DNA from: Actinomycetes bacterium | GTDB taxonomy: Bacteria > Actinomycetota > Thermoleophilia > Gaiellales > F1-60-MAGs149 | Reading direction: 5' to 3' | Length of the DNA stretch: 64,000 nucleotides | NCBI GenBank assembly: GCA_025360225.1 | Contig: JANYCN010000018.1 | Coordinates: forward strand, 35,038 to 99,037 | Notes under the pieces: generated by a model | What the model was told of the DNA's origin: nothing | Database searches by the model: none | What the model saw: only the letters and a program-made list of their open reading frames with translations | Program-made: the position numbers and the translations under genes | Part shown: positions 42,124-54,384 of the stretch, one piece after another | How positions within the stretch are numbered: position 1 is the stretch's first letter | How the letters are laid out: the number at the start of each line of letters is the position of its first letter

Positions 42124-45100
42124 TCAACGGCGCCCCTGGGCGAAGTGCTGGGCGGGTGGCGCAACGGCGACCAGGTCGTTGGAGGGCACCGCGCGGCGGC
42201 CGCGTCCGCGGTCCTGGGAGCGTGCGCCGATCACGTGACGGCCGGGCGTTGCGAGCGGTTCGAGGTGGCTAACGAGCACGTTGATGTTGCGGTCGCGGCG
42301 CTCGAGCGTCCCCTCTGCGAGCAGCAGCGGCTCGGTTCGGGCGAGCAGCCGGTAGCGCTCGTAGACGTCGGGGAACAGCACGAGGTTGACGAGGCCGTGC
42401 TCGTCCTCGAGCAGCAGGAACACGATTCCGTTCGCGCTCTGCGGTCGCTGTCGTGCGATCGCAAGCCCTGGGAGCGTGATCAGGCTGCCGCTCGGCAGGG
42501 CGCGGAGATCGGCGCTTGACACGATGTCTTCGAGACCACGCCGGATCGCTGCGATCGGGTGCTCGCGGATCGAAACGCCGGTCGTCGCGTAGTCGGCGAC
42601 GAGCAGCTCCCACTCGCCCTGCGCGGGGAGGGCTGGTGCGTCGCCGACCGTGAGATCGAGCGCGAGCTGTCGGTGCCCGCCGCGCACCGGCGCCGAACGC
42701 GTCGCGAGGCCGAGCTCCCAGAGCAGCGTGCGTCGAGGGCCGAGGGCGTCACACGCGCCGGCGGCGACGATCCGCTCGAGCTGGTCGAGCTTCAGGTCGA
42801 GCCGAACGGCGAGATCGCGGGCTGAGCGGAACGGCCCGCGCGTGTGGCGTTCCGCGATGACGGCCGCTGCGCCATCTGCACCGAGGCCGGTGACGTAGCC
42901 GAGGCCGATCCGCACGGCGTCACCTTCCAGGACGCACGCCGCCTGCGAGCGCAGGATGTCGGGCGAACGCACCTCGACGTCGCGGCGTTGGCCATCACGG
43001 ACGAGCGAGGCGGGAGGGTAGAAGCCCATCGGCTGAGCGTTCAGCAGCGCGCAGAGAAACGCAGCGGGGTGGTGTCGACGCAGCCATGCGCTCTGGTAGG
43101 CGAGCAGTGCGAACGCGGCGGCGTGGGCCTTTGGAAAACCGAAGGCGGAGAACGCGAGGATCTTCGCGAACACCAGCTCTGCGACGTGCTCAGGAACGCT
43201 GCGTGCGTGGCAGCCGTCACGGAACGCGTCCCACTGGGCGCGCATCGCTGCCTCCGACCTTCGTCGGCTCATCGCCCTGCGCAGCGCCTCGGCCTGTCCG
43301 GCGCTGAACCCGGCGAGCGCCTGCGCGGCGGAGAGCACCTGGTCCTGGAAGACGATCACGCCAAGCGTCTCCTCGAGCGGCCCTTCGAGCAGCGGGTGGT
43401 CGTATGGGATCGGGAACGCCGGGTCGTGGCGGCGTGCGAGGCGGCGCTGGATGTACGGGTGAACGGCGCCGCCCTGGATCGGGCCGGGGCGTACCAGGGC
43501 GACCTCGACGACGAGATCATCGAGGTTCTCCGGCTGGGTGCGCAGGAGCATCTGCATCTGTGCGCGCGACTCGATCTGGAACACGCCGACGGTGTCAGCA
43601 GCCTTGATCTCGGCGTACACCTCGGGGTCGTCGAGCGGGATCCGAGACAGATCGACCGCCTCGCCGCGTGATGCGAGGGCGACGACGCACTCCTCGACGG
43701 CTGAGAGCATGCCGAGCCCGAGCAGGTCGATCTTCAGGAAGCCTGCATCGGCGCACGAGTCCTTGTCCCACTGGCAGATCGTGCGCCCCGCCATCGCGGC
43801 CGGCTGGAGCGGCACCATCGTCGTCAGCGGCCGGTCCGAGATGATCATGCCGCCGGGGTGCTGGGAGAGGTGGCGCGGCATGCCGCCGATCGCGCGGCAG
43901 AGCGCCGCGAGCGCACGGAAGCGGCGATCTCCCGCACGCTCCGCGAGGCCGGGCAGGCGTGTCATCTCGTCGCCGACGGCGGCGGCGCTCCAGCCGTCGG
44001 ATGATGCAGCGAGCCGCGCGACGTCGCTTGGCGGCAGGCCGAGCGCCTTACCGAGCTCGCGGATCGCGCCCCGTGCGCGGTAGGTGGAGTGCGCTCCGAC
44101 GAGCGCCGCCTGGCGCGATCCGTAGCGTTCGTGCACGCGCAGGATCAGCCCCGCGCGGATGTCGCGCGGGAAGTCGAGGTCGATGTCGGGCACGGAGGCG
44201 AGCTCGCGGTTCAGGAACCGACCAAGCGACAGGCGTGCCTCGATCGGGTCGACGTGGGAGAGGCCGGTCAGGTAGCAGACGATCGAGCCGACGCTCGAGC
44301 CGCGGCCGCGTCCTGGTGGTAGCGTCATGCGTGGCGAGCCGGCACCGCGCACCTCGAGGGCCACCTCGCGCGCAAGCTCGAGCACCTCGTGGTGAAGCAG
44401 GAAGAAGCCTGAGAGGCGGTGGTGGCGGATCAGCGCGAGCTCGTCCGCGAGGCGGGTGACCCCTTCTGTGTGGTGACGCGAGCCGGCCGGGTAGCGCTCG
44501 ACGAAAGCGTGAGCGCAGAGCTCTGCGAGGCCGACGTCCGGGTCATCGGTCGTCGTGGGTGGCCGGTAGCCGAGGTCGCGTGTCAGGTCGAAGGTGATCG
44601 ACTCGGCGATCTCGCGGGTCGCTGTGATGGCGTGGGGGAGGTCGGCGAAGAGCGCGGCCATCTCCGTCGGACGCTTCAGCACGTGCTCGCGGTTGCCGCG
44701 CCGCGCACCCTCGCACCCGTCGAGCGTGGCGTGCGTGCGGATCGCAACCATGGCGTCCTGCAGCGGCCCGCGGTTGCGACGGTGCAGGTGCACGTCGTTC
44801 GTCGCGGCGATCGGGAGCGTGTGGCGTCGGGCGAGCTCGAGCAGGCTGCGCGTGCGGGCGCGGTCGCCGCGCTGGTACGGGCGGCTGATCTCGATCCAGA
44901 GCCGGCGGGCGAAGGCGTCGGCAAGCTTCCGTGCCCGGTGCGTCGCGAGCTCGCGGTCGCCCCGTCCGAGCGCTGCTGTGAGCGCGCCCGAGCGTGCGCA
45001 ACCGCTGAGGCACAGCAGGCCGTCGGCGTGCTCGAGGACGTCGTGAAACGACACGTTGGGCGGAGCTGGCGAGCGGTCGGGGGCGTCGCGCGTGTGGACG

Positions 45101-45399
45101 TGCGCGAGGGTGATCAGCTCGCAGAGGTTGCTGTAGCCGGTAGTGGTCGCCGCGAGGAGCGTCAGATGGAAGTCCTCGTCACCGTCGCGCACCGTCAGCT
45201 CGCAGCCCGTGATCGGCCGGATGCCCGCGTCGGCAGCGGCTTGGGCGAACACGAGCGCTCCACACAGGTTGTCGTGGTCGGTGAGCGCGAGCGCATCGTG
45301 CCCTTGCTCGACCGCGCGGTCGACGAGCTCCTCGGGCGTTGACGCGCCATCGAGAAACGAGAAGGCGGAGTGGCAGTGCAGCTCAACGTAGCCCGTCAT
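42124..45399 (-). CDS. dnaE2: error-prone DNA polymerase III alpha subunit
   Basis: 1,091 residues, C-family polymerase of the mutasome. An N-terminal PHP domain (ELHCHSAFSFLDGAS) is followed by the polymerase core with catalytic acids in VPDIDLDFPRD, plus GRGSSVGSIVCYLTGL and FLKIDLLGLGMLSA, and a C-terminal OB domain (SLITLPGLAIARQRPQSANGIVFLLLED). The shorter length and these segments fit DnaE2 rather than replicative DnaE1. DnaE2 copies damaged templates with ImuB. The start is exact: TATACT ends 6 nt before the ATG, so the mRNA is leaderless, and a perfect LexA box fills the -10/-35 spacer. Confidence 0.94.
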   Translation of the reverse strand: MTGYVELHCHSAFSFLDGASTPEELVDRAVEQGHDALALTDHDNLCGALVFAQAAADAGIRPITGCELTVRDGDEDFHLTLLAATTTGYSNLCELITLAHVHTRDAPDRSPAPPNVSFHDVLEHADGLLCLSGCARSGALTAALGRGDRELATHRARKLADAFARRLWIEISRPYQRGDRARTRSLLELARRHTLPIAATNDVHLHRRNRGPLQDAMVAIRTHATLDGCEGARRGNREHVLKRPTEMAALFADLPHAITATREIAESITFDLTRDLGYRPPTTTDDPDVGLAELCAHAFVERYPAGSRHHTEGVTRLADELALIRHHRLSGFFLLHHEVLELAREVALEVRGAGSPRMTLPPGRGRGSSVGSIVCYLTGLSHVDPIEARLSLGRFLNRELASVPDIDLDFPRDIRAGLILRVHERYGSRQAALVGAHSTYRARGAIRELGKALGLPPSDVARLAASSDGWSAAAVGDEMTRLPGLAERAGDRRFRALAALCRAIGGMPRHLSQHPGGMIISDRPLTTMVPLQPAAMAGRTICQWDKDSCADAGFLKIDLLGLGMLSAVEECVVALASRGEAVDLSRIPLDDPEVYAEIKAADTVGVFQIESRAQMQMLLRTQPENLDDLVVEVALVRPGPIQGGAVHPYIQRRLARRHDPAFPIPYDHPLLEGPLEETLGVIVFQDQVLSAAQALAGFSAGQAEALRRAMSRRRSEAAMRAQWDAFRDGCHARSVPEHVAELVFAKILAFSAFGFPKAHAAAFALLAYQSAWLRRHHPAAFLCALLNAQPMGFYPPASLVRDGQRRDVEVRSPDILRSQAACVLEGDAVRIGLGYVTGLGADGAAAVIAERHTRGPFRSARDLAVRLDLKLDQLERIVAAGACDALGPRRTLLWELGLATRSAPVRGGHRQLALDLTVGDAPALPAQGEWELLVADYATTGVSIREHPIAAIRRGLEDIVSSADLRALPSGSLITLPGLAIARQRPQSANGIVFLLLEDEHGLVNLVLFPDVYERYRLLARTEPLLLAEGTLERRDRNINVLVSHLEPLATPGRHVIGARSQDRGRGRRAVPSNDLVAVAPPAQHFAQGRR

Positions 45400-45411
45400 T
45401 CACAAAGTATA

Positions 45412-45425
45412 CGAACAAGCGTTCG
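45412..45425. promoter_or_regulatory. LexA (SOS) box between dnaE2 and the P450
   Basis: CGAAC-AAGC-GTTCG, a perfect match to the Gram-positive/actinobacterial LexA consensus CGAACRNRYGTTCG. It lies directly upstream of the dnaE2 -10 (45406-45411). It also overlaps the -35 position (45418-45423) of the divergent P450 promoter if TACAGT (45441-45446) is that gene's -10. A second candidate P450 -35, TTGACA, follows at 45428-45433. Confidence 0.88.
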
Positions 45426-45453
45426 TGTTGACAGGTTGGATACAGTATCCATT

Positions 45454-46713
45454 ATGGATCGAGTGACGCTTGACCGGATCGACCTCTCCAACCACGATCT
45501 GTTCGTCGACGGCCCGCCGCACGCCGTCTTCGACACCCTCCGCGTGGAGGCGCCGGTGTTCTGGAACGCCGAGAGGCCGCCGCGCAAGGGCTTCTGGGCG
45601 ATCACGCGCTACCAGGACATCGTCACCGTGCTGGGCGATCCGACAACGTTCTCGAGCGAGCTCGGCGGCGTCACCCTCGAGGAGCAGTCGGCGGAGGAAC
45701 TGGGAGAGCGGCGCAACTTCCTCGAGCTCGACCCACCGCGTCACGGTCGGTTCCGTAAGGTGCTCGCACCCGACTTCACACCAAAGGCGGTCGGGCGTTG
45801 GGAGGCGTGGCTGCGCGACCTGATCGTCCGCAACCTCGACGAGGTGCTGGTGACCCGCGAGTTCGATTTCGTCGAGGCGATCGCTGCGCCCGTGCCGATC
45901 CGCGTCCTTGGCCACATCATGGGCGTCCCCGACGAGCACCACGACCGGTTGATCGTGCTCTCCGACAGGCTGATCAACAGCAACGATCCAGAGCTCGCGA
46001 CCGTCACGTCCGACTCTGCCGACTCCGACCCGTACCGCTTTGAGCCGTTCCGTAGCCCGGATGCGGCAGAGATCGTCGCGATCGGCCGCGCGCTGTTCGA
46101 CGAGCGCCGCCGCGAGCCGCGCGAGGACGTGATCTCCTACCTCGTGAACGCGAGCCCGGACGGTGGTGCGTACACCCAACAGGAGCTCGAGATCAACTTC
46201 GTCACGATGGTCGTCGCCGGGAACGAGACGACGCGCTCGGCGATGGCGAACGGCATCCTCGCGTTCTGCGAGAACCCTGACCAGTGGCAGCTTCTGCTCG
46301 ACCAGCCCGAGCTGATCAACGCCGCCGCAGACGAGATGATCCGCTACGCCTCGCCGGTGTGGCACTTCCGCCGTACGGCGACGCGGGACGTCACGCTCGG
46401 TGGCGTGACGATCCGCGAGGGAGACAAGGTCGTGGTCTGGTTCGGCTCTGGCAATCGCGATCCCTCCCGGTTCCCGGACGCCCATCGTTTCGACGTCACC
46501 CGCCCGCCGAGCAAGCACACGCACTGCGCCTTTGGCCGTGGCGGGCCGCACTACTGCATCGGAGCGCACCTTGCGACGCTCGAGGTTCGCGTGCTGCTCG
46601 AGGAGCTCGTCGCGCGCGTCCAGTCGATCGAGCTAGCGGGCGAGCCGCGCCGGGTGCGCTCGAACTTCGCCAACGGTCTCAAGACGCTCCCCGTGCGGGT
46701 CGCCTTGCGCTAG
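45454..46713 (+). CDS. cytochrome P450
   Basis: 419 residues, soluble bacterial class. The heme-ligand loop is FGRGGPHYCIGAHLA with the axial Cys at residue 368. The I-helix oxygen-binding motif is VVAGNETTRS, and the K-helix ExxR is in DEMIRYASPVW. N-terminal DLSNHDLFVDGPPHAVFDTLR resembles actinobacterial CYP142/CYP125-like steroid or terpenoid hydroxylases. Substrate unknown, and no ferredoxin partner is adjacent. The ATG at 45454 follows TACAGT by 7 nt; an alternative leaderless GTG is at 45463. It is the only gene between dnaE2 and imuB and shares the LexA-box region. Confidence 0.92.
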   Translation: MDRVTLDRIDLSNHDLFVDGPPHAVFDTLRVEAPVFWNAERPPRKGFWAITRYQDIVTVLGDPTTFSSELGGVTLEEQSAEELGERRNFLELDPPRHGRFRKVLAPDFTPKAVGRWEAWLRDLIVRNLDEVLVTREFDFVEAIAAPVPIRVLGHIMGVPDEHHDRLIVLSDRLINSNDPELATVTSDSADSDPYRFEPFRSPDAAEIVAIGRALFDERRREPREDVISYLVNASPDGGAYTQQELEINFVTMVVAGNETTRSAMANGILAFCENPDQWQLLLDQPELINAAADEMIRYASPVWHFRRTATRDVTLGGVTIREGDKVVVWFGSGNRDPSRFPDAHRFDVTRPPSKHTHCAFGRGGPHYCIGAHLATLEVRVLLEELVARVQSIELAGEPRRVRSNFANGLKTLPVRVALR

Positions 46714-46732
46714 GAGCCCGTCGGTCTTCGTC

Positions 46733-46984
46733 CTATCCCCGCTGGCGGTACCAGGTGCCAGGGAGGCGCCGATCCTCGAACACGACGCAGACGCGACCGC
46801 CCGCGAGCACGAGCTCGAGGTAGCGGCGTCGGATCGGTGCGTCCGTCCACCAGCCCTCCTCGACGCGCCACTCCTCGCGGATCGCCTCGACCGCTCGGCC
46901 ATCGACGGTGATTGGTCGGCTGCTCGTGTCGACGACCACCCGCGCCGGGACGGGAGCGTTCAGCGTCTGCAGGCGCCTGCTCAT
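46733..46984 (-). CDS. DUF6504-like small partner of ImuB
   Basis: 83 residues. The C-terminal pattern RRRYLELVLAGGRVCVVFEDRRLPGTWYRQRG, together with an N-terminal basic strand, matches the small domain (DUF6504) that accompanies Y-family ImuB genes in actinobacteria. Recognition is from memory of the family. It overlaps the imuB stop by 4 bp (ATGA), so it is surely co-expressed with imuB and likely works with it. Its role in translesion synthesis is unknown. Confidence 0.68.
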   Translation of the reverse strand: MSRRLQTLNAPVPARVVVDTSSRPITVDGRAVEAIREEWRVEEGWWTDAPIRRRYLELVLAGGRVCVVFEDRRLPGTWYRQRG

Positions 46985-48174
46985 CCGGGCGCGAGCCCGT
47001 ACCGTCGCTCGGGCAGGCGGCTGTCGACGTCGATCGGGACGACCTGCAGCGCGGCGTCCTGCCCGAGCGCCGCGCGCACCTGGGTGACCGCGCCCGCAAG
47101 GCGGGCGGCGCGCACGTCACCGTCCTCGCGAAACAGCGGTGCCTGCTGGTTGCCAGGCGCGAGAGCGGTGATCTCGAGCGTGAGCTCCTCTGCCGGGGCG
47201 GGAAGCCGGGCGAGCTTGGCCTGAAGCGCCAGTCGGATGCGCGTGGGATCGGCGGTGGGTTCGCGCAACGACGCGTCGACGCACCAGGAGCCGCCGCCGA
47301 CGAGCCGGGCGCCAAGCGTCAGCACTCGCGGCTCGCGCCCCTGTCGGTCAGCACGCGCCAGGAGGCGCTCGACGAGCACGCGTATGGCGTGGTCGAGCGC
47401 GCCCTCGGTGGTGGTTGCGTCTGGCATCGTGATCGTCTCGCGCATCGGCTCGCGCGGCGTGCGGGGGACGAGCGGTGTCGGGTCGTCACCGCTTGCAAGC
47501 CGCCAGGCGCGCTCACCGTCGGGTCCGAAGCGGTCGCGCAGACGAACGCGACCGAGCGCCTCGACGGCGCCCAGTCGATCGACGCCGAGCCGTTCGAGCG
47601 TCGTCACGAGCGAGCCGGGGACCGCGCCGTCGCTCTGCAGCGTCGACACGGCGAGCGGTGCGAGGAACTCACGCACCGCCGGGCCGGTGACGACGACCGG
47701 CCGTCCAGGACGTGCGCGTCGCGTTGCGGCGAGCGCCGGGAACCGCCCGGGTGCCGCTCCGACCCGGCTGGACGGGGCGATCTCCTGGAGTCGAACGAGG
47801 ACGGCCGCCCGTCCACCGTAGAGCAGCTCGACGGGCTCGGTTGCGAGCAGCGCACGGCCGGGGCCGGCCGGCTCGACGGGGATGCCGAGCGCCTCGATCC
47901 GCTCGAGGAGACGCTCGTTCGCGGAGGAGACGATGATCGGGTCGGAGGGCAGGAGCGCTAGACCGGGGCAGAGGGCGAGCGCCTCCGAGATGCGCATGCC
48001 CTCACGGACCCCCGCGGTGGACGCCGCTGCAGACGGCTCGCCAACGCGCGGGGGTCCGCCAGGCTCGGGCGCCAACGCGGCGGCGAGAGCGGGGTCGCGC
48101 AGACCGAGCCGGCTAGCGGTGACGGCGAACGCGAAGCGGGGGATGACCAGGGCTGCGATCACCCGCTCCAGCAT
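46981..48174 (-). CDS. imuB: ImuB-like inactive Y-family polymerase
   Basis: 397 residues of the Y-family shape: VTASRLGLRDPALAAALAPEPGG...VREGMRISEALALCPGLALLP, HhH region LERLGVDRLGAVEALG...LRDRFG and a little-finger-like C-terminus. The catalytic acidic residues are not evident (the first motif reads ALVIPRFAFAVTAS instead of DMDAFFAS-like), as expected for ImuB, which bridges DnaE2 and the beta clamp. Usually ImuA/ImuA' precedes imuB; none is in the window. A perfect LexA palindrome lies 4 bp upstream of the ATG. Confidence 0.88.
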   Translation of the reverse strand: MLERVIAALVIPRFAFAVTASRLGLRDPALAAALAPEPGGPPRVGEPSAAASTAGVREGMRISEALALCPGLALLPSDPIIVSSANERLLERIEALGIPVEPAGPGRALLATEPVELLYGGRAAVLVRLQEIAPSSRVGAAPGRFPALAATRRARPGRPVVVTGPAVREFLAPLAVSTLQSDGAVPGSLVTTLERLGVDRLGAVEALGRVRLRDRFGPDGERAWRLASGDDPTPLVPRTPREPMRETITMPDATTTEGALDHAIRVLVERLLARADRQGREPRVLTLGARLVGGGSWCVDASLREPTADPTRIRLALQAKLARLPAPAEELTLEITALAPGNQQAPLFREDGDVRAARLAGAVTQVRAALGQDAALQVVPIDVDSRLPERRYGLAPG

Positions 48175-48177
48175 ACA

Positions 48178-48191
48178 CGAACGTACGTTCG
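48178..48191. promoter_or_regulatory. LexA (SOS) box between imuB and the LysE operon
   Basis: CGAAC-GTAC-GTTCG, perfectly symmetric and embedded in a 22-bp palindrome (48174-48195). It lies 4 bp from the imuB start. On the other side it lies just upstream of TACGAT (48197-48202), the putative -10 of the plus-strand micro-ORF, so LexA could block both directions. Confidence 0.88.
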
Positions 48192-48209
48192 TGTACTACG
48201 ATCGCATCG

Positions 48210-48269
48210 ATGACGATGCTGGCTTGCGCGGCGTGTGGCGAGCCGGTTGACGGGTTGCGCAACGGATGA
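48210..48269 (+). CDS. 19-codon CxxC micro-ORF coupled to the exporter
   Basis: MTMLACAACGEPVDGLRNG then TGA. Support is positional: the ATG is 7 nt after TACGAT, the leaderless spacing seen repeatedly in this window. Its stop forms an ATGA overlap (48266-48269) with the LysE-type gene. The CAAC pair is CxxC-like. It could be a leader peptide that opens translation of the exporter, or a tiny functional peptide. No ribosome site precedes the exporter's own ATG. Confidence 0.5.
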   Translation: MTMLACAACGEPVDGLRNG

Positions 48270-48889
48270 GTCCGGGCGTGGTGGACGTTGGCGACGCCGT
48301 CGTGCTGGGCGGGATTGCCGGCTATGCCGTCGCGATGCCGGTCGGCGCGATCTCGCTCCTGATTCTCGACACGGGGATCCGCCGCGGGCTCCGGCTCGCG
48401 CTGGCTGCAGGTCTTGGTACGGCGCTTGCCGACCTGCTGTACGCCGCGGGCGCTGCCCTTGGCGGCTCGGCGCTCGCGCGCCTGTTTGAGCCGGTAGCGG
48501 GAGCCGTTCGAGTGGTCGCTGCAGGTGCGTTGCTCGCGGTCGCGGCGGTGCTCGTCCGCCAAGCCCGATCGGTGCTGGTCGAACGCACCGTGCAGGCACG
48601 GAGCGCGGCGGCGACGTGCGTGCGGTTTCTCGCGCTCACGATCATCAACCCGGCGACTGCGGCGTCGTTCGCGGCGGTCGTGCTCGGGACCGGAGACCGG
48701 CAGCTGACGTTCGCGTCCGGCGCCGCGTTCGTCCTCGCCGCATTCGTCGCCTCGCTCTCCTGGCAGTGGGTTGTTGCTGCTGTTGGAGCGATGGCGCACC
48801 GGCGCCTCCCGGCATCGGCACGGCGGTTGACCAGCGGCGTCGGCGCCGGTCTGCTCGCGCTGCTCGCGCTGCGGGTCATCCTCAGCTGA
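48266..48889 (+). CDS. LysE/RhtB-family exporter
   Basis: 207 residues, about six membrane helices. YAVAMPVGAISLLILDTGIRRGLRLALAAGLGTALADLLY is the LysE-family signature, and FLALTIINPATAASFAAVVLG is the conserved Asn-Pro segment of helix 4. These proteins export amino acids or other small metabolites. It is coupled to the micro-ORF upstream and, through it, to a LexA box, which would make it SOS-inducible. A short hairpin with TTTT near 48902-48915 may terminate it. Confidence 0.85.
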   Translation: MSPGVVDVGDAVVLGGIAGYAVAMPVGAISLLILDTGIRRGLRLALAAGLGTALADLLYAAGAALGGSALARLFEPVAGAVRVVAAGALLAVAAVLVRQARSVLVERTVQARSAAATCVRFLALTIINPATAASFAAVVLGTGDRQLTFASGAAFVLAAFVASLSWQWVVAAVGAMAHRRLPASARRLTSGVGAGLLALLALRVILS

Positions 48890-48987: not shown

Positions 48988-51900
48988 GTGAGCGATGGCG
49001 ATGTCACCTCGAGGCTTGCTCGGCTGGCCCACATGGATGGGCAGCCGCGATCGTTGCGCGGCGCGATTGGCGACCGCATGCAGGCCGCCTCTGAGGAGGA
49101 GATCCAGGGCCGGATCCGCGAGGAGTCGCAGAAGCTTCTGAAGCAGTCCGAGAAGCTCCTGAACCAACGCGAGGCGCAGCTTGAGGCTCGCGAACGGGCG
49201 CTGGCTGCTCACGAGACGGGCGTCGACCTCTCGACGATCAACGCAGACACGATCGCGCGGGTGGGCGAGCTTGAGGGCCACATCGGCGAGCTCGAGGAGA
49301 GGGCTGTTGCGCTCGAGGCCGAGATCGAGCGGGAGCGGCGTCGCGCCGGCGAGCTTGAACAGATGCTCGAGTACCACAGCTTCGCGCGGAGCGACGACGA
49401 CGATAGCGGCGTCGAGGCTGACCTCCGTGCGGAGATGGAGGCGCTCCAGGCGCAGATCGCCGGGCGGGATCTCGATCTCGTGCAGGCGCGCGCCGCCGTG
49501 ACGGGTGCCGAGGACCGCCGCCACGAGCTGGAACGGGTGCTCGCCGACATCCGCGCCGAGTCCGCGCGCAAGATCGACCCGGATGACATGCGCGTGCGGA
49601 TCGTCGGTCTCGAGCGCGACGCGGCGCGCGCTGGCGAGCTTGCGGCGCGCGCCGAGGAGCTCGAGGCCCGCATCGCCGCCGGCGCCGCCGGGCCGGCGTC
49701 AGACGCTGAGCTGGCGGCGGAGGTCGACCGGCTCCGCGCGGCCCTCGCAACGGCGTCGACCCAGACGGCGAGTGACGGCACGAGCGAGGAGATCGAGGCC
49801 TTGCGTGCCGAGCTTGTCGAGGCCCGCGCGGCGGTGCTCGCGGCGGAGCAGGCGATCGCTGCTCCGAGCACGATGGACGCCGAGACGGCGGAGGGTCGCG
49901 TCGCGATCCTCGAGGACGCGCTGTTTCGTCTGCAGCTCGAGCTGGAACAACGTCCCCTTGCCGGCGACCACGCTCCCGACCCGCGTGCCGGCGAGCTGGC
50001 GGTCGAGATCGATGAGCTACGACGCGAGCTCGCGGGTCGTGAGGACGAGATCGCGAGCCTTCGACGGGCGTCCGACGTGGCAACGGAGATCGCTGCGCGG
50101 CTCGCCGCCGCGGAGCAGTCGCTCGCCGAGGAGGGTGCCGCTCGTGTGCTGGCCGAGTCCGATCGAGCCGAGCTCGAGCGCCGTGCCGGACTTGATGCCG
50201 ATGCGTTGGTCGACGTCCGCGAACGGCTCGTCGTCGCTGAAGCTGCGGCTGCGGCGGCGCTGGCGGCGCGGGAGGCGTTCGCGGGCGACGTCCAGTCTGC
50301 CGATGCCGCGCTGACGGCGTTGCGGGACGAGGTCGCGGAGCGGACGCTCCAGCTCGAGCAGGCGAACGCGCGGCTCGATGCCGTCGAGGCGGCCGCTGCC
50401 GACGCGACGCGGGAACGCGAGCGGGCGAGCGACGCTGCAGCGGGAGCCGTCGAGGCCCTTGCGGCGATCGAGGAGCGGGCCGCGAGGGACGTGGCGGCGC
50501 TCGCCGAGGCGCGCGAGCAGCTGGCTCGTGCGCAGGACGCTGCCAGCGACGCGTTGCGTGCTCGGGACGCGGGGCAAGGAGAGGCCGAGGCCGCTGTCCG
50601 GGAGCTGGACGAGCTGCACGGCCGGGTAGCTGAGCAGGCGCGTGCGCTGACCGCCGCGCACGAGGAGGTCGAGCGCGCGCTCGAGGCCACCGCGTCGGCG
50701 ATCCGAGACCGGGAGACGGCGGACGAGAGCGCCGAGGTCGCGGCGCGCGGATATGCCGATCGTCGCGAGCAGCTTGCTGCAGAGGTCGCTGCTGCGCGTT
50801 CCGTGAGCGTTGAGCTCGAGCAGCGCCTCGCCGCGCAGGAGCACGAGCGCGCACTGCTGCAGCAGGCGCTCGTGAACGCCGACGCCGCAGCGAGCTCGTT
50901 GGCGGTCGAGCACGAGAGCGAGCAGGCAGCGCGGATCACGCTCGAACGCCGCTTGGCCGAGGTTGAGCAGACGCGTGCGGACGCCACCGGCGCTGTGATG
51001 GACGCGGAACGGCGTGCCTCGGAGCTCGCGGGGGAGCTGGAGGCGCTCCGGCGGTCCTCGACCGAGGAGTCCGACGAGCAGGACGCCTTGCGGGATGAGC
51101 TGACGACGGCGAAGCGCCTGCTTGACGAGGTTCGCGGCCGCACCGAGGAGCTTGAGGCTCGCGACGAGCAGCTCCGACGCGAGCGTGATCGTCTGGCTGA
51201 GTTGGCAGAACGCGCGCGCGCCGACGCCGACGCGACAGCCTCCGACCTCGCGGAGGCCGAGGGCGAGCTCGGCCGTCGCGCGACGGCCTTCGACGTCGAG
51301 CAGCAAGCGCGTGTGGGCGAGCTCGCTACGGCGCGTGAGGAGGTCGAGCGGCTGACGGCGGAGCTGGGCGCGACGCAGGCGCAGGCGAACGACCTCGCGA
51401 CGGACCGAGCGCAGGCAGAGGATCGAGCTGCAGAGGCTGACGCGAGGCGTGCTGGCGCCGAGATCGAGCGTGCAGCGATCGCCACGACCCTGACCGATCT
51501 CGAGCACCAGCTAGCCGCAGTGCAGGCGGAGTCCCGTGACGCAGCCGATGCGCGCGCCGGTGCCGCGGCGCGCGCTGACCAGGCCGAGGCCGAGCGAGCC
51601 GGGGTCGAGTGCGACCTTGCCGCGCTCCGGGGAGAGGTCGCTCGGGTCGAGGAGCGGCTGGCGGACGAGACGCGCTCGTCCGAGTCCGCGCTCGCCGAGC
51701 TCCAGCGACAGCTCGACGACGTCCTCGGTGAGGCGGCTGCGCTTCGACAACGCGAGGCGGACGCCCGTCAGCGCGAGGAGTCTCTCGAGTCGGCCGTTGC
51801 TGCGACCCGAGAGGAGGGCGAGCAGCAGGTCGCCCGACTGCAGCAGGAGCTCGCTGCCGCGACAGCGGCAGCGCAGGTGGAGATCGCACGGATCCGTGCT

Positions 51901-54384
51901 GCGGCGGACGAGGCGCGCGACGGCGACGCGGAACGCTCGGAGCGAGACGCCACGAGGCTTGCAGAGCTGGAACAGGCGCTTCGAGCGGCGACCGAGGCCG
52001 TCGACGCGGCGACCCACGACGCAGACCGGAGCCGTGAGATCGCTCGGGAGGTGACCGCGGCGGCGGAGCGCGAGCTGGCGAGCCTGCAGGCGAGCGCCGA
52101 CGAGCGATCGGCCGCCCTCGAAGCGACGCTGGCGGAGGTCCGCGCGCTCGCCGACGGGCGGGTCGATCCGCTCGAGGTTGAGGACCGGCTTTCGTCGCTC
52201 CGGCGCGACGTCGACGCGGCCCGCGCGGAGCTTCGACTGCGCGAGGAGCAGCTGACGGATGCCGCTCGTGAACGGGAGGAGCGTCACGCTGCGGCGCTGG
52301 TGGCGGCGGAGGCCGCTGCGGCGACGCGGCAGGGCTCGATCGCGGTCGCCCTCGCCGACGCGACCACGGCCGTCGTGGCGATCACGGCCGAGCGCGACGC
52401 GCTCGTCGAGCAGGCCCGGTCGACGGCCGAGGCGCTGGAACTGGCAGGCGAGCAGCTCGCCGGCGAGCTGCGCTCCGGGGTCGAACACTTGCGGGTGATC
52501 AGCGATCTCCGCGCCGAGGCGGCACGACTGACGGCGGCAGTCGACGAGCTCCGCGGAGAGGTCGATCGTCGCATCGATCCCGCTGAGCATCACACGCGTG
52601 TTGGTGCCGCGGAGACTGCATTGGAGACCGTCAGGGCGGAGCTTGCGGTTGAGCGGCTCCACGCCGTTGAGCAGCGAGAGGCAACGAGCGCCGAGGTGGC
52701 GGTGTTGCGGGCCGCGATCGCTGAGGCCGAGTCGGGCGCAGAGATCGTTCGGCGTGAGCGCGACGCCGCGGCCGCCCGGCTGGAGACGGCGATGCGCCGG
52801 GTCGGTGAGCTCGACGACGCCGTCCAAGCGGCCCGGCGTGAGGCGGAAGGTCGGCTTGACCCGGCGGTGGTGGCGCGCCAGCGCGACGAGCTCCTCGCGC
52901 AGGTCGCCGCGGCACGGGTCGAAGCTGCGGAGGCACGCACCGGGCGCGAGGCGACGCAGGTGTCCCTCGACACCCTCCGCATCGAGGCGACGAACCTGGC
53001 AATCCAGGTGCAGGCAGCCGAGGAGCGAGCTGGTCGGCTGAACGCAATGGAGGTCGACCTGAAGCAGGCGGTTGACGCACGTGAGCTGGCGCGGACGGAC
53101 GCGATCCGCAGCGCTGCGCGCCTGGCACAGGTCGAGTCGGAGCTCGTGTCGGCACGCGCCGAGGCGCGCGAGCGGGCGATCTCTCTCGAGGAGCGTGCAC
53201 GAATCGCCGAGGCGCGGATCAGCGACCTCGAGGACCAGCTCGGGGGCGCCCCTTCGAGCGTGCTTCTCACAGGTGACGATGCGCCGGACGTCGATGGCGC
53301 GCTGCGCCACGCCGCCGAGCTGCAGGCGCGGATCGCGACGCTCCAGTCGCGTGAGGAGGCGGCACGGTCGCAGATTCTCGCGCTGCGCGGCGAGCTCGAG
53401 TCGCTCCGGGGCGACGACGCGATGCGGGCCGGTGCGATGGCCGGCCTCTCCGGCCGAGAGCGCCAGATCGCGGAGCGCGAGGCACAGCTTGCCGGTGATC
53501 GGACGAGGGTCGCTGAGCGTGAGGCGGAGCTTCGGGGCCTTCTCGAGCGCCACGAGCTCGACGGCGCCCGCCTGAAATCCGATCGCGGGGTGCTCGACGT
53601 GGCACGCACGGATCTTGCTGCCCGGGAGCGGCAGGTCCTCGCCGAGCTTGAGGAGCGCGAGACGAGGCTGGCCGCCGAGCTCGCCGATCGCAGCGACGCG
53701 CTCCAGCTTGCTGCCGCAGAGATCGAGGAGGCACGATCGCAGTCGCACCAGGTGGTCGCCGGTCGCGGTGACGACCTCGAGCGACGAGAGGTCGAGCTGA
53801 CGACGATCGCGGAGTCACTGGCGCGGCGTCGCGACGAGATGCGGCGGCTCGATGACGCGCTCGCGACACGCGAGCGTCAGCTCGACCGTCGCGCGAGTGA
53901 CCTTGAGCGGCGCGCTGGAGAGGTCAAGCGACGTGAGGACGAGGTCGACTCGGCCGAGGAGGAGGTCGAGCGGATCCGGACGTCGATGCTGCGCAGCGAG
54001 CCGGTCACGCTACGGGCCGTCGCGCCGCTGCCGGAGGCGTCCGACGACGTCGAGCTCGACGAGGATGGCAACCCGGTCCAGGCGTGGCTCGACCGCCGGC
54101 GCCGCAAGCAGGCATCGCTCGAGGCGAAACAGGCCGATCTCGACCGGCGTGAGGTCTCGGTGCGCGAGCTCGAGGGTCGCCTGCGCGCCCTCGAAGGAGC
54201 GCTGACGCGGAAGGAGGCCGATCTGGCATCGTTCGCCGAGATGCTGCAGCAGTCGCTCGGTCAGGCCGAGGACGCCGCGCTCGGCGAGGTCACCCGTTCG
54301 AAGGCTCCGTCGGACGAGGACCCGACCCAGCGGCTGCGGTTCTGGACGCGTGACAGCTCGACGGGCAACTCGAAGGCGTCCTGA
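48988..54384 (+). CDS. giant coiled-coil protein, 1,798 aa
   Basis: Nearly the whole chain is heptad-rich Ala/Glu/Arg/Leu coiled coil from about residue 30 to 1,640, with no signal peptide, membrane helix or ATP-binding motif, so it is not an SMC or Rad50. Four spaced copies of R/K-[IVL]-D-P (DNA near 49,570, 52,158, 52,566 and 52,849) start similar segments such as RVDPLEVEDRLSSLRRD. The last 180 residues contain a less helical stretch (LPEASDDVELDEDGNPVQAW) and more coil. The short N-terminus RLARLAHMDGQPRSLRGAIGDRM might be a docking segment. The GTG at 48988 is the first start in frame; no strong ribosome site. Scaffold or cytoskeleton-like function is inference. Confidence 0.75.
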   Translation: MSDGDVTSRLARLAHMDGQPRSLRGAIGDRMQAASEEEIQGRIREESQKLLKQSEKLLNQREAQLEARERALAAHETGVDLSTINADTIARVGELEGHIGELEERAVALEAEIERERRRAGELEQMLEYHSFARSDDDDSGVEADLRAEMEALQAQIAGRDLDLVQARAAVTGAEDRRHELERVLADIRAESARKIDPDDMRVRIVGLERDAARAGELAARAEELEARIAAGAAGPASDAELAAEVDRLRAALATASTQTASDGTSEEIEALRAELVEARAAVLAAEQAIAAPSTMDAETAEGRVAILEDALFRLQLELEQRPLAGDHAPDPRAGELAVEIDELRRELAGREDEIASLRRASDVATEIAARLAAAEQSLAEEGAARVLAESDRAELERRAGLDADALVDVRERLVVAEAAAAAALAAREAFAGDVQSADAALTALRDEVAERTLQLEQANARLDAVEAAAADATRERERASDAAAGAVEALAAIEERAARDVAALAEAREQLARAQDAASDALRARDAGQGEAEAAVRELDELHGRVAEQARALTAAHEEVERALEATASAIRDRETADESAEVAARGYADRREQLAAEVAAARSVSVELEQRLAAQEHERALLQQALVNADAAASSLAVEHESEQAARITLERRLAEVEQTRADATGAVMDAERRASELAGELEALRRSSTEESDEQDALRDELTTAKRLLDEVRGRTEELEARDEQLRRERDRLAELAERARADADATASDLAEAEGELGRRATAFDVEQQARVGELATAREEVERLTAELGATQAQANDLATDRAQAEDRAAEADARRAGAEIERAAIATTLTDLEHQLAAVQAESRDAADARAGAAARADQAEAERAGVECDLAALRGEVARVEERLADETRSSESALAELQRQLDDVLGEAAALRQREADARQREESLESAVAATREEGEQQVARLQQELAAATAAAQVEIARIRAAADEARDGDAERSERDATRLAELEQALRAATEAVDAATHDADRSREIAREVTAAAERELASLQASADERSAALEATLAEVRALADGRVDPLEVEDRLSSLRRDVDAARAELRLREEQLTDAAREREERHAAALVAAEAAAATRQGSIAVALADATTAVVAITAERDALVEQARSTAEALELAGEQLAGELRSGVEHLRVISDLRAEAARLTAAVDELRGEVDRRIDPAEHHTRVGAAETALETVRAELAVERLHAVEQREATSAEVAVLRAAIAEAESGAEIVRRERDAAAARLETAMRRVGELDDAVQAARREAEGRLDPAVVARQRDELLAQVAAARVEAAEARTGREATQVSLDTLRIEATNLAIQVQAAEERAGRLNAMEVDLKQAVDARELARTDAIRSAARLAQVESELVSARAEARERAISLEERARIAEARISDLEDQLGGAPSSVLLTGDDAPDVDGALRHAAELQARIATLQSREEAARSQILALRGELESLRGDDAMRAGAMAGLSGRERQIAEREAQLAGDRTRVAEREAELRGLLERHELDGARLKSDRGVLDVARTDLAARERQVLAELEERETRLAAELADRSDALQLAAAEIEEARSQSHQVVAGRGDDLERREVELTTIAESLARRRDEMRRLDDALATRERQLDRRASDLERRAGEVKRREDEVDSAEEEVERIRTSMLRSEPVTLRAVAPLPEASDDVELDEDGNPVQAWLDRRRRKQASLEAKQADLDRREVSVRELEGRLRALEGALTRKEADLASFAEMLQQSLGQAEDAALGEVTRSKAPSDEDPTQRLRFWTRDSSTGNSKAS

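Follow-up and report, generated by a model that had tools for sequence, protein, structure and literature searches.

When two genes diverge from a single LexA box, does the box govern both? The question is raised by a 64-kb stretch of an Actinomycetes bacterium genome (contig JANYCN010000018.1; hereafter the window, meaning the whole stretch analysed), in which the mutasome genes dnaE2 and imuB each face a divergent neighbour across such a box: a cytochrome P450 gene in the first case, and a unit made of a micro-ORF (a very short open reading frame, ORF) and a LysE-type translocator gene in the second. The first-pass annotation had suggested that all four units may be SOS-controlled. The reading favoured here, which we consider likely on the sequence evidence, is that LexA on the two boxes would hold dnaE2 and imuB off until damage occurs, with P450 under a separate GntR/FCD-type repressor acting through the palindrome GGATACAGTATCC.

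The two boxes are perfect copies of CGAACN4GTTCG:

45412..45425, no strand: LexA box 1 (predicted operator), CGAACAAGCGTTCG, inside the 17-bp spacer of the dnaE2 promoter
48178..48191, no strand: LexA box 2 (predicted operator), CGAACGTACGTTCG, between imuB and the micro-ORF/LysE unit

They are the only such sites in the window, against 0.17 expected, and none of 100 shuffles contains two or more (0/100). Chance occurrence can thus be rejected, and the two perfect boxes reported in the first-pass annotation are confirmed. With one mismatch allowed, the shorter motif GAACN4GTTC is found 20 times (both perfect boxes counted), compared with 19.3 expected, and 46 shuffles reach 20; this is chance level, so the weight rests on the perfect boxes only. 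A terminator-like stem flagged at 45426-45411 is the LexA palindrome itself, and stems of this kind occur at chance frequency (2 found, 2.2 expected).

Whether the motif belongs to LexA was judged from the whole assembly (G000; 3.24 Mb, 89 contigs), with the reversed motif as control. CGAACN4GTTCG has 15 perfect sites genome-wide versus 5 for the control; judging from the neighbouring frames, 11 of the 15 lie upstream of or at a gene start and 4 deep in coding frames. The single lexA match in the genome (NCBIfam lexA, 210 bits, cut-off 111) is preceded by the perfect box CGAACAGATGTTCG, which ends 33 bp upstream of the helix-turn-helix match, and CGAACN4GTTCG is common to the upstream regions of lexA, dnaE2, and imuB. 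Perfect boxes also precede ssb (Pfam SSB) and the genes for a DinG-type helicase, a RadA-type protein, an Rv2578c-like radical SAM protein (374.6 bits, cut-off 430), and a sigma-70-type protein, and the recA box, CGAACATCTGTCCG, has one mismatch. Here and below, the names DsbA-like, TfoX-like, RsmH, MraZ, RadA, and DinG were assigned by eye or on the basis of domain content, and ORF neighbours near genome boxes, GntR homologues, and the contents of imuB/dnaE2 slots come from a simple ORF caller that drops short or oddly composed ORFs.

The motif agrees with the LexA motif of Streptomyces, given as tCGAAC-N4-GNNCGa in PMC9380542. Because lexA, ssb, repair-type genes, and (with one mismatch) recA carry it, and because the Streptomyces motif agrees, both boxes are almost certainly LexA operators, with binding predicted. 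It is very improbable that the palindromes are operators of another regulator, TetR- or ArsR-like. Such a regulator would fit the flanks of both boxes, which read ACGAAC..GTTCGT and not the tCGAAC of Streptomyces, and PMC8151990 notes that an ArsR motif looks like the SOS box of mycobacteria; it would not fit the presence of the same motif before lexA, ssb, imuB, and, with one mismatch, recA. In the Streptomyces venezuelae regulon described in PMC9380542, dnaE2, lexA, and recA are targets of a near-identical motif, dnaE2 is listed with dinP, and the term 'p450' has 0 occurrences in the main text.

The segment around box 1 holds the following features:

42124..45399, minus strand: dnaE2, error-prone DNA polymerase, 1091 aa (NCBIfam PRK05672 958 bits, cut-off 939; Pfam)
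45406..45411, minus strand: dnaE2 -10, TATACT (consensus promoter scan)
45429..45434, minus strand: dnaE2 -35, CTGTCA, overlapping the P450 -35 of the opposite strand
45428..45433, plus strand: P450 -35, TTGACA (consensus promoter scan)
45438..45450, no strand: predicted GntR-type operator GGATACAGTATCC in the P450 spacer, its last base being the first of the -10
45450..45455, plus strand: P450 -10, CATTAT, after a 16-bp spacer (consensus promoter scan)
45463..46713, plus strand: cytochrome P450, probable GTG start (Pfam p450); the frame is also open from ATG 45454

The consensus scan of 45380-45480 returns exactly two promoters, that of P450 on the plus strand and that of dnaE2 on the minus strand, and these are among just 3 matches in 14 kb, where 0.2 are expected. 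The dnaE2 match is CTGTCA-17-TATACT with box 1 occupying its spacer, which bears out the earlier description of this promoter; the gene starts 6 nt after the -10, and its transcript is predicted to be leaderless. The P450 match is TTGACA-16-CATTAT, with box 1 outside it, just upstream of the -35, and GGATACAGTATCC within the spacer. The two -35 hexamers (45428-45433 and 45429-45434) are the same DNA read on opposite strands. A second perfect palindrome, ATCCATTATGGAT, is located at 45447-45459, spanning the P450 -10 and sharing bases with the GntR-type palindrome.

As for box 2, the imuB side comprises three features:

46733..46984, minus strand: conserved 83-aa ORF after imuB, without a Pfam or NCBIfam match
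46981..48162, minus strand: imuB, Y-family homologue, GTG start (Pfam IMS, IMS_C)
48170..48175, minus strand: imuB -10, TATGCT, 2 nt from box 2

The start of imuB is probably GTG 48162 instead of ATG 48174, because the ATG overlaps the -10 and the alignments of most relatives begin at residue 3-6 of the ATG frame; like dnaE2, imuB is predicted to be leaderless. The SLDEA segment of DinB aligns to GPGRA in ImuB, so the DE, which we take to be catalytic acids of the active site, is replaced by GR (the N-terminal acid lies outside the alignment), and ImuB is probably inactive as a Y-family polymerase. The locus thereby combines a DnaE2-type polymerase over its cut-off with a Y-family fold whose DE is replaced, both features of a mutasome.

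An imuB homologue is present in 58 of 61 genomes, the own genome included (57 of 60 relatives). Of the relatives' 57 loci, 40 were read, namely 38 chosen by best score and two of family f4, many of them on short contigs. In all 40, a box of the form NGAACN4GTTCN has its end no farther than about 45 nt from the imuB start, and TAnnnT stands within 12 nt of the box in 24 of the 40, at exactly 2 nt in 18 of those 24. Since the box is found in 40/40 loci and the TAnnnT spacing is repeated, a box plus its -10 before imuB is a recurrent promoter design, and imuB of the window fits it (+2). In 18 of the 40 loci (between L066 and L088) two LexA-type boxes precede imuB, the second near or overlapping the start region.

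For dnaE2, the closest relative (G003, so called for the highest imuB identity, 72%; locus L051) has a perfect box 14 bp upstream of the gene; the consensus scan finds no promoter at this dnaE2, and its -10 was read by eye. Among the 34 loci that contain the dnaE2 start (it is absent from 6 of 40), 4 carry, no more than 40 nt before it, a box with one mismatch or none (L051, L074, L085, and L088); this count leaves out L075, whose one-mismatch box stands 74 nt before dnaE2. In 11 g3 loci (L053-L063) dnaE2 directly follows imuB and a small ORF, and from this order dnaE2 there probably uses the imuB box. Taken with the box of the genome's own lexA and its other SOS-type promoters, this conservation strongly supports the predicted LexA control of dnaE2 and imuB, so that for these two units the claim of SOS control stands. 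Two points weigh against the regular promoter geometry assumed here: the consensus scan gives no match at box 2, where the -10s were read by eye, and the box of the RadA-type gene lies 36 nt upstream of the start and lacks a TAnnnT within 22 nt, so other box geometries exist in the genome.

The actinobacterial SOS regulon includes the damage-inducible imuA'-imuB-dnaE2 of the mycobacterial mutasome. As there, LexA-type boxes precede imuB and dnaE2 in the window, and the DE of DinB is replaced in ImuB. In contrast to the mycobacterial system, imuB and dnaE2 each form a unit with its own box, an opposite-strand P450 gene lies between them, and no imuA' was noticed beside either gene, no search having been aimed at it.

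Does box 1 also serve P450? If both boxes acted in both directions, dnaE2, P450, imuB, and micro-ORF/LysE would all be SOS-induced. We regard this as unlikely. It draws on the position of palindromic boxes between divergent starts; on the P450 side it conflicts with a promoter that has the box outside and another palindrome inside, and with the homologues of the gene. In 29 of the 70 P450 matches outside the own genome, read with at most 1.5 kb of flank each, CGAACN4GTTCG occurs outside the P450 frame in none (0/29; L116 lacks upstream DNA, and masking hides that of L104 past about 60 nt). Inside the frame, CGAACN4GTTCG is present in L095 and the shorter GAACN4GTTC in L107. A separate contig scan with the P450 query gave one 37% locus. 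With homologues free of boxes outside the frame, box 1 outside the promoter, and GGATACAGTATCC in the spacer, the earlier proposal of SOS control is not supported for P450.

The spacer palindrome points elsewhere. Elsewhere in the genome it has a single perfect copy, in front of a GntR/FCD gene at C87:72303 and 4 bp before the probable ATG of that regulator, which is over cut-off for both Pfam GntR and Pfam FCD, thus carries the shared palindrome at its own promoter, and diverges from a glutamine-synthetase-like gene. The core GGATACNGTAT is found at 2 places in the own genome (P450 and GntR/FCD) and at 1 in G003, with 0 in reversed controls; in G003, GGATACTGTAT occurs once in the genome, 21 bp upstream of the matched frame of the P450 homologue. 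A synthetase-like gene adjoins the P450 homologue in 10 of the 29 loci, and G016 has a run of aldehyde dehydrogenase, P450, synthetase, and Rieske genes, some 10 kb from a GntR homologue. P450 is probably under the control of a GntR/FCD-type repressor via GGATACAGTATCC, as a GntR-regulon gene that landed beside dnaE2. Because its palindrome elsewhere in the genome precedes only a GntR-type regulator, P450 is probably a metabolic neighbour and not a repair gene.

Several observations weigh against this assignment. GGATACAGTATCC is perfect just twice in the own genome, with a third, one-mismatch copy at C4:46601. The palindrome is not conserved at the GntR homologue of G003 (64%), which has only the half-site TGGATACA upstream and, within the surrounding 16 kb that were read, lacks a synthetase homologue, and several g3 P450 homologues carry TTGGATCCAA-like sequences, not GGATACNGTAT. 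In 19 of the 29 P450-homologue loci no synthetase lies in the flank examined. By sequence P450 is CYP125/CYP124-like (best PDB matches CYP125MRCA and CYP124), a likeness that does not point to an amine pathway; a CYP151-like amine oxygenase was considered and, on the same matches, rejected. Finally, a LexA dimer bound to box 1 would leave only 2 bp between itself and the P450 -35 and could get in its way; some weak SOS influence on P450 is therefore conceivable.

GntR-controlled P450 genes with a glutamine-synthetase-like gene are known from the mycobacterial mor/pip clusters. Similarly, one palindrome is common to a GntR regulator and P450 in this genome, and relatives have a synthetase-like gene next to P450. 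As differences, P450 here resembles CYP125/CYP124 by sequence and may belong to another family than the P450s of mor/pip, and it is located away from the synthetase and GntR genes.

The stretch from the imuB operon to dnaE2, here called the slot, also bears on how P450 came to this place. Its passengers vary among related genomes, G003 having an F420H2-dependent quinone-reductase-like gene there and others carrying further ORFs. The description of a divided mutasome is right, with the reservation that intervening genes are common in the order. P450 and LysE homologues lie near imuB or dnaE2 in none of the 40 relatives' loci examined, as far as these extend, on which ground P450 as an ancestral member of an SOS cassette was rejected. 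Because slot contents vary and no locus of the 40 has P450 there, P450 is most likely a passenger of one lineage and a late arrival. Seven f3 loci (L072, L076, L077, L081, L084, L086, and L087; by Pfam in L072) have opposite-strand double-cupin-like genes in the slot. An opposite-strand gene recurring on a boxed dnaE2 promoter was considered and rejected, as the best LexA-box match before dnaE2 in the seven has 2-4 mismatches, a match reached by 15 to 100% of random windows from the same loci; dnaE2 of these seven genomes has no recognisable LexA box.

The case of the LysE unit, on the far side of box 2, is less clear:

48197..48202, plus strand: predicted -10 of the micro-ORF/LysE unit, TACGAT, 5 nt from box 2
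48210..48269, plus strand: micro-ORF, 19 aa, start 7 nt past the -10
48266..48889, plus strand: LysE-type translocator, 207 aa (Pfam LysE 49.6 bits, cut-off 25.6)

The micro-ORF stop overlaps the LysE start (ATGA). On this side, box 2 stands between a weak -35, TACACG (3/6, at 48174), and TACGAT. TAnnnT within 0-5 nt is found at 0.6% of plus-strand window positions, though AT-richer intergenic DNA would give more, and this proximity also speaks for SOS induction of all four units. Since the -10 adjoins box 2 and the start lies at leaderless distance from it, LexA on box 2 should block LysE, if the promoter is used. This -10 is offset from the box by 5 nt, where 2 is usual, and the promoter escapes the consensus scan. 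LysE matches occur in 8 of 399 class genomes, the own genome included, and the other 7, distant homologues (34-46%), have no box, which counts against induction of all four units; LysE-like proteins at 72-79% identity do exist.

A rival reading, in which dnaE2 and imuB are the sole SOS genes and P450 and LysE are bystanders that landed by conserved operators, is quite possible, if short of probable. It accords with the lack of P450 and LysE beside the mutasome genes of relatives, with the variety of slot passengers, and with the rarity of LysE: only 4 of 60 relatives have weak matches, none above 35% identity, and a separate contig scan with the LysE query found no relative. In 10 of 13 family-f1 loci (L051-L063), moreover, a same-direction gene, DsbA-like by eye, precedes imuB, and the divergent LysE unit is therefore also lineage-specific. 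It does not account for a -10 by box 2 or for a start at the leaderless distance of dnaE2, imuB, and the Rv2578c-like gene. LexA control of the LysE unit, predicted from these positions, stands at near even odds, and of the four units first proposed LysE is retained as possible, with box 2 in its predicted spacer.

Under the favoured reading, LexA on box 1 would keep dnaE2 off and LexA on box 2 would do the same for imuB, and perhaps for the micro-ORF/LysE unit, until DNA damage, when RecA-driven self-cleavage of LexA would release the operators. A GntR protein on GGATACAGTATCC would keep P450 off until its effector appears. Because P450 and dnaE2 share one -35 segment on opposite strands, polymerase could probably not occupy both promoters at once. 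A more far-reaching version is doubtful, if conceivable: a two-input mutagenesis switch, with LexA and GntR in opposite spacers around the shared -35 giving either dnaE2 or P450, and LexA also gating the LysE exporter via the leaderless micro-ORF. Were it true, the inducer of P450 would turn down SOS mutagenesis, and P450 would in turn be turned down by DNA damage; should the predicted exclusion of polymerase at the shared -35 take place, promoter geometry alone would couple mutation supply to a metabolic signal.

The mutasome parts are ordinary, and the unusual part is the paired palindromes with the shared -35, an arrangement for which a literature search (LexA with P450, divergent or overlapping promoters, GntR/P450/glutamine synthetase) found no describing paper. 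The locus also gives a measure of the trust that can be placed in a LexA box lying between divergent genes: its dnaE2 flank looks like a true target, and its P450 flank very likely obeys a different repressor.

The genome search adds sequence-based SOS candidates for this lineage. In the Rv2578c-like gene (L007:3995-5072, contig C10) the LexA box lies in the spacer of TTGATA-16-TATGAT and the start 6 nt past the -10, probably one more leaderless SOS-type promoter. Two tandem LexA boxes (L008:4001-4037; C14:11787-11823) precede the gene for an 88-aa YneA-like LysM protein, which at 40.6 bits is below the NCBIfam cut-off of 60; YneA is an SOS inhibitor of cell division. Identical boxes, CGAACAGGTGTTCG, stand before an mraZ/rsmH-like cluster (by eye) and the sigma-70-type gene (L006:4001 and L011:4001; C8 and C47), through which an SOS input into division and sigma control is possible. 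Within the window, downstream of LysE, 48988-54384 on the plus strand encodes a 1798-aa ORF that is Glu/Ala/Arg-rich, coiled-coil-like by eye, and without a Pfam match.

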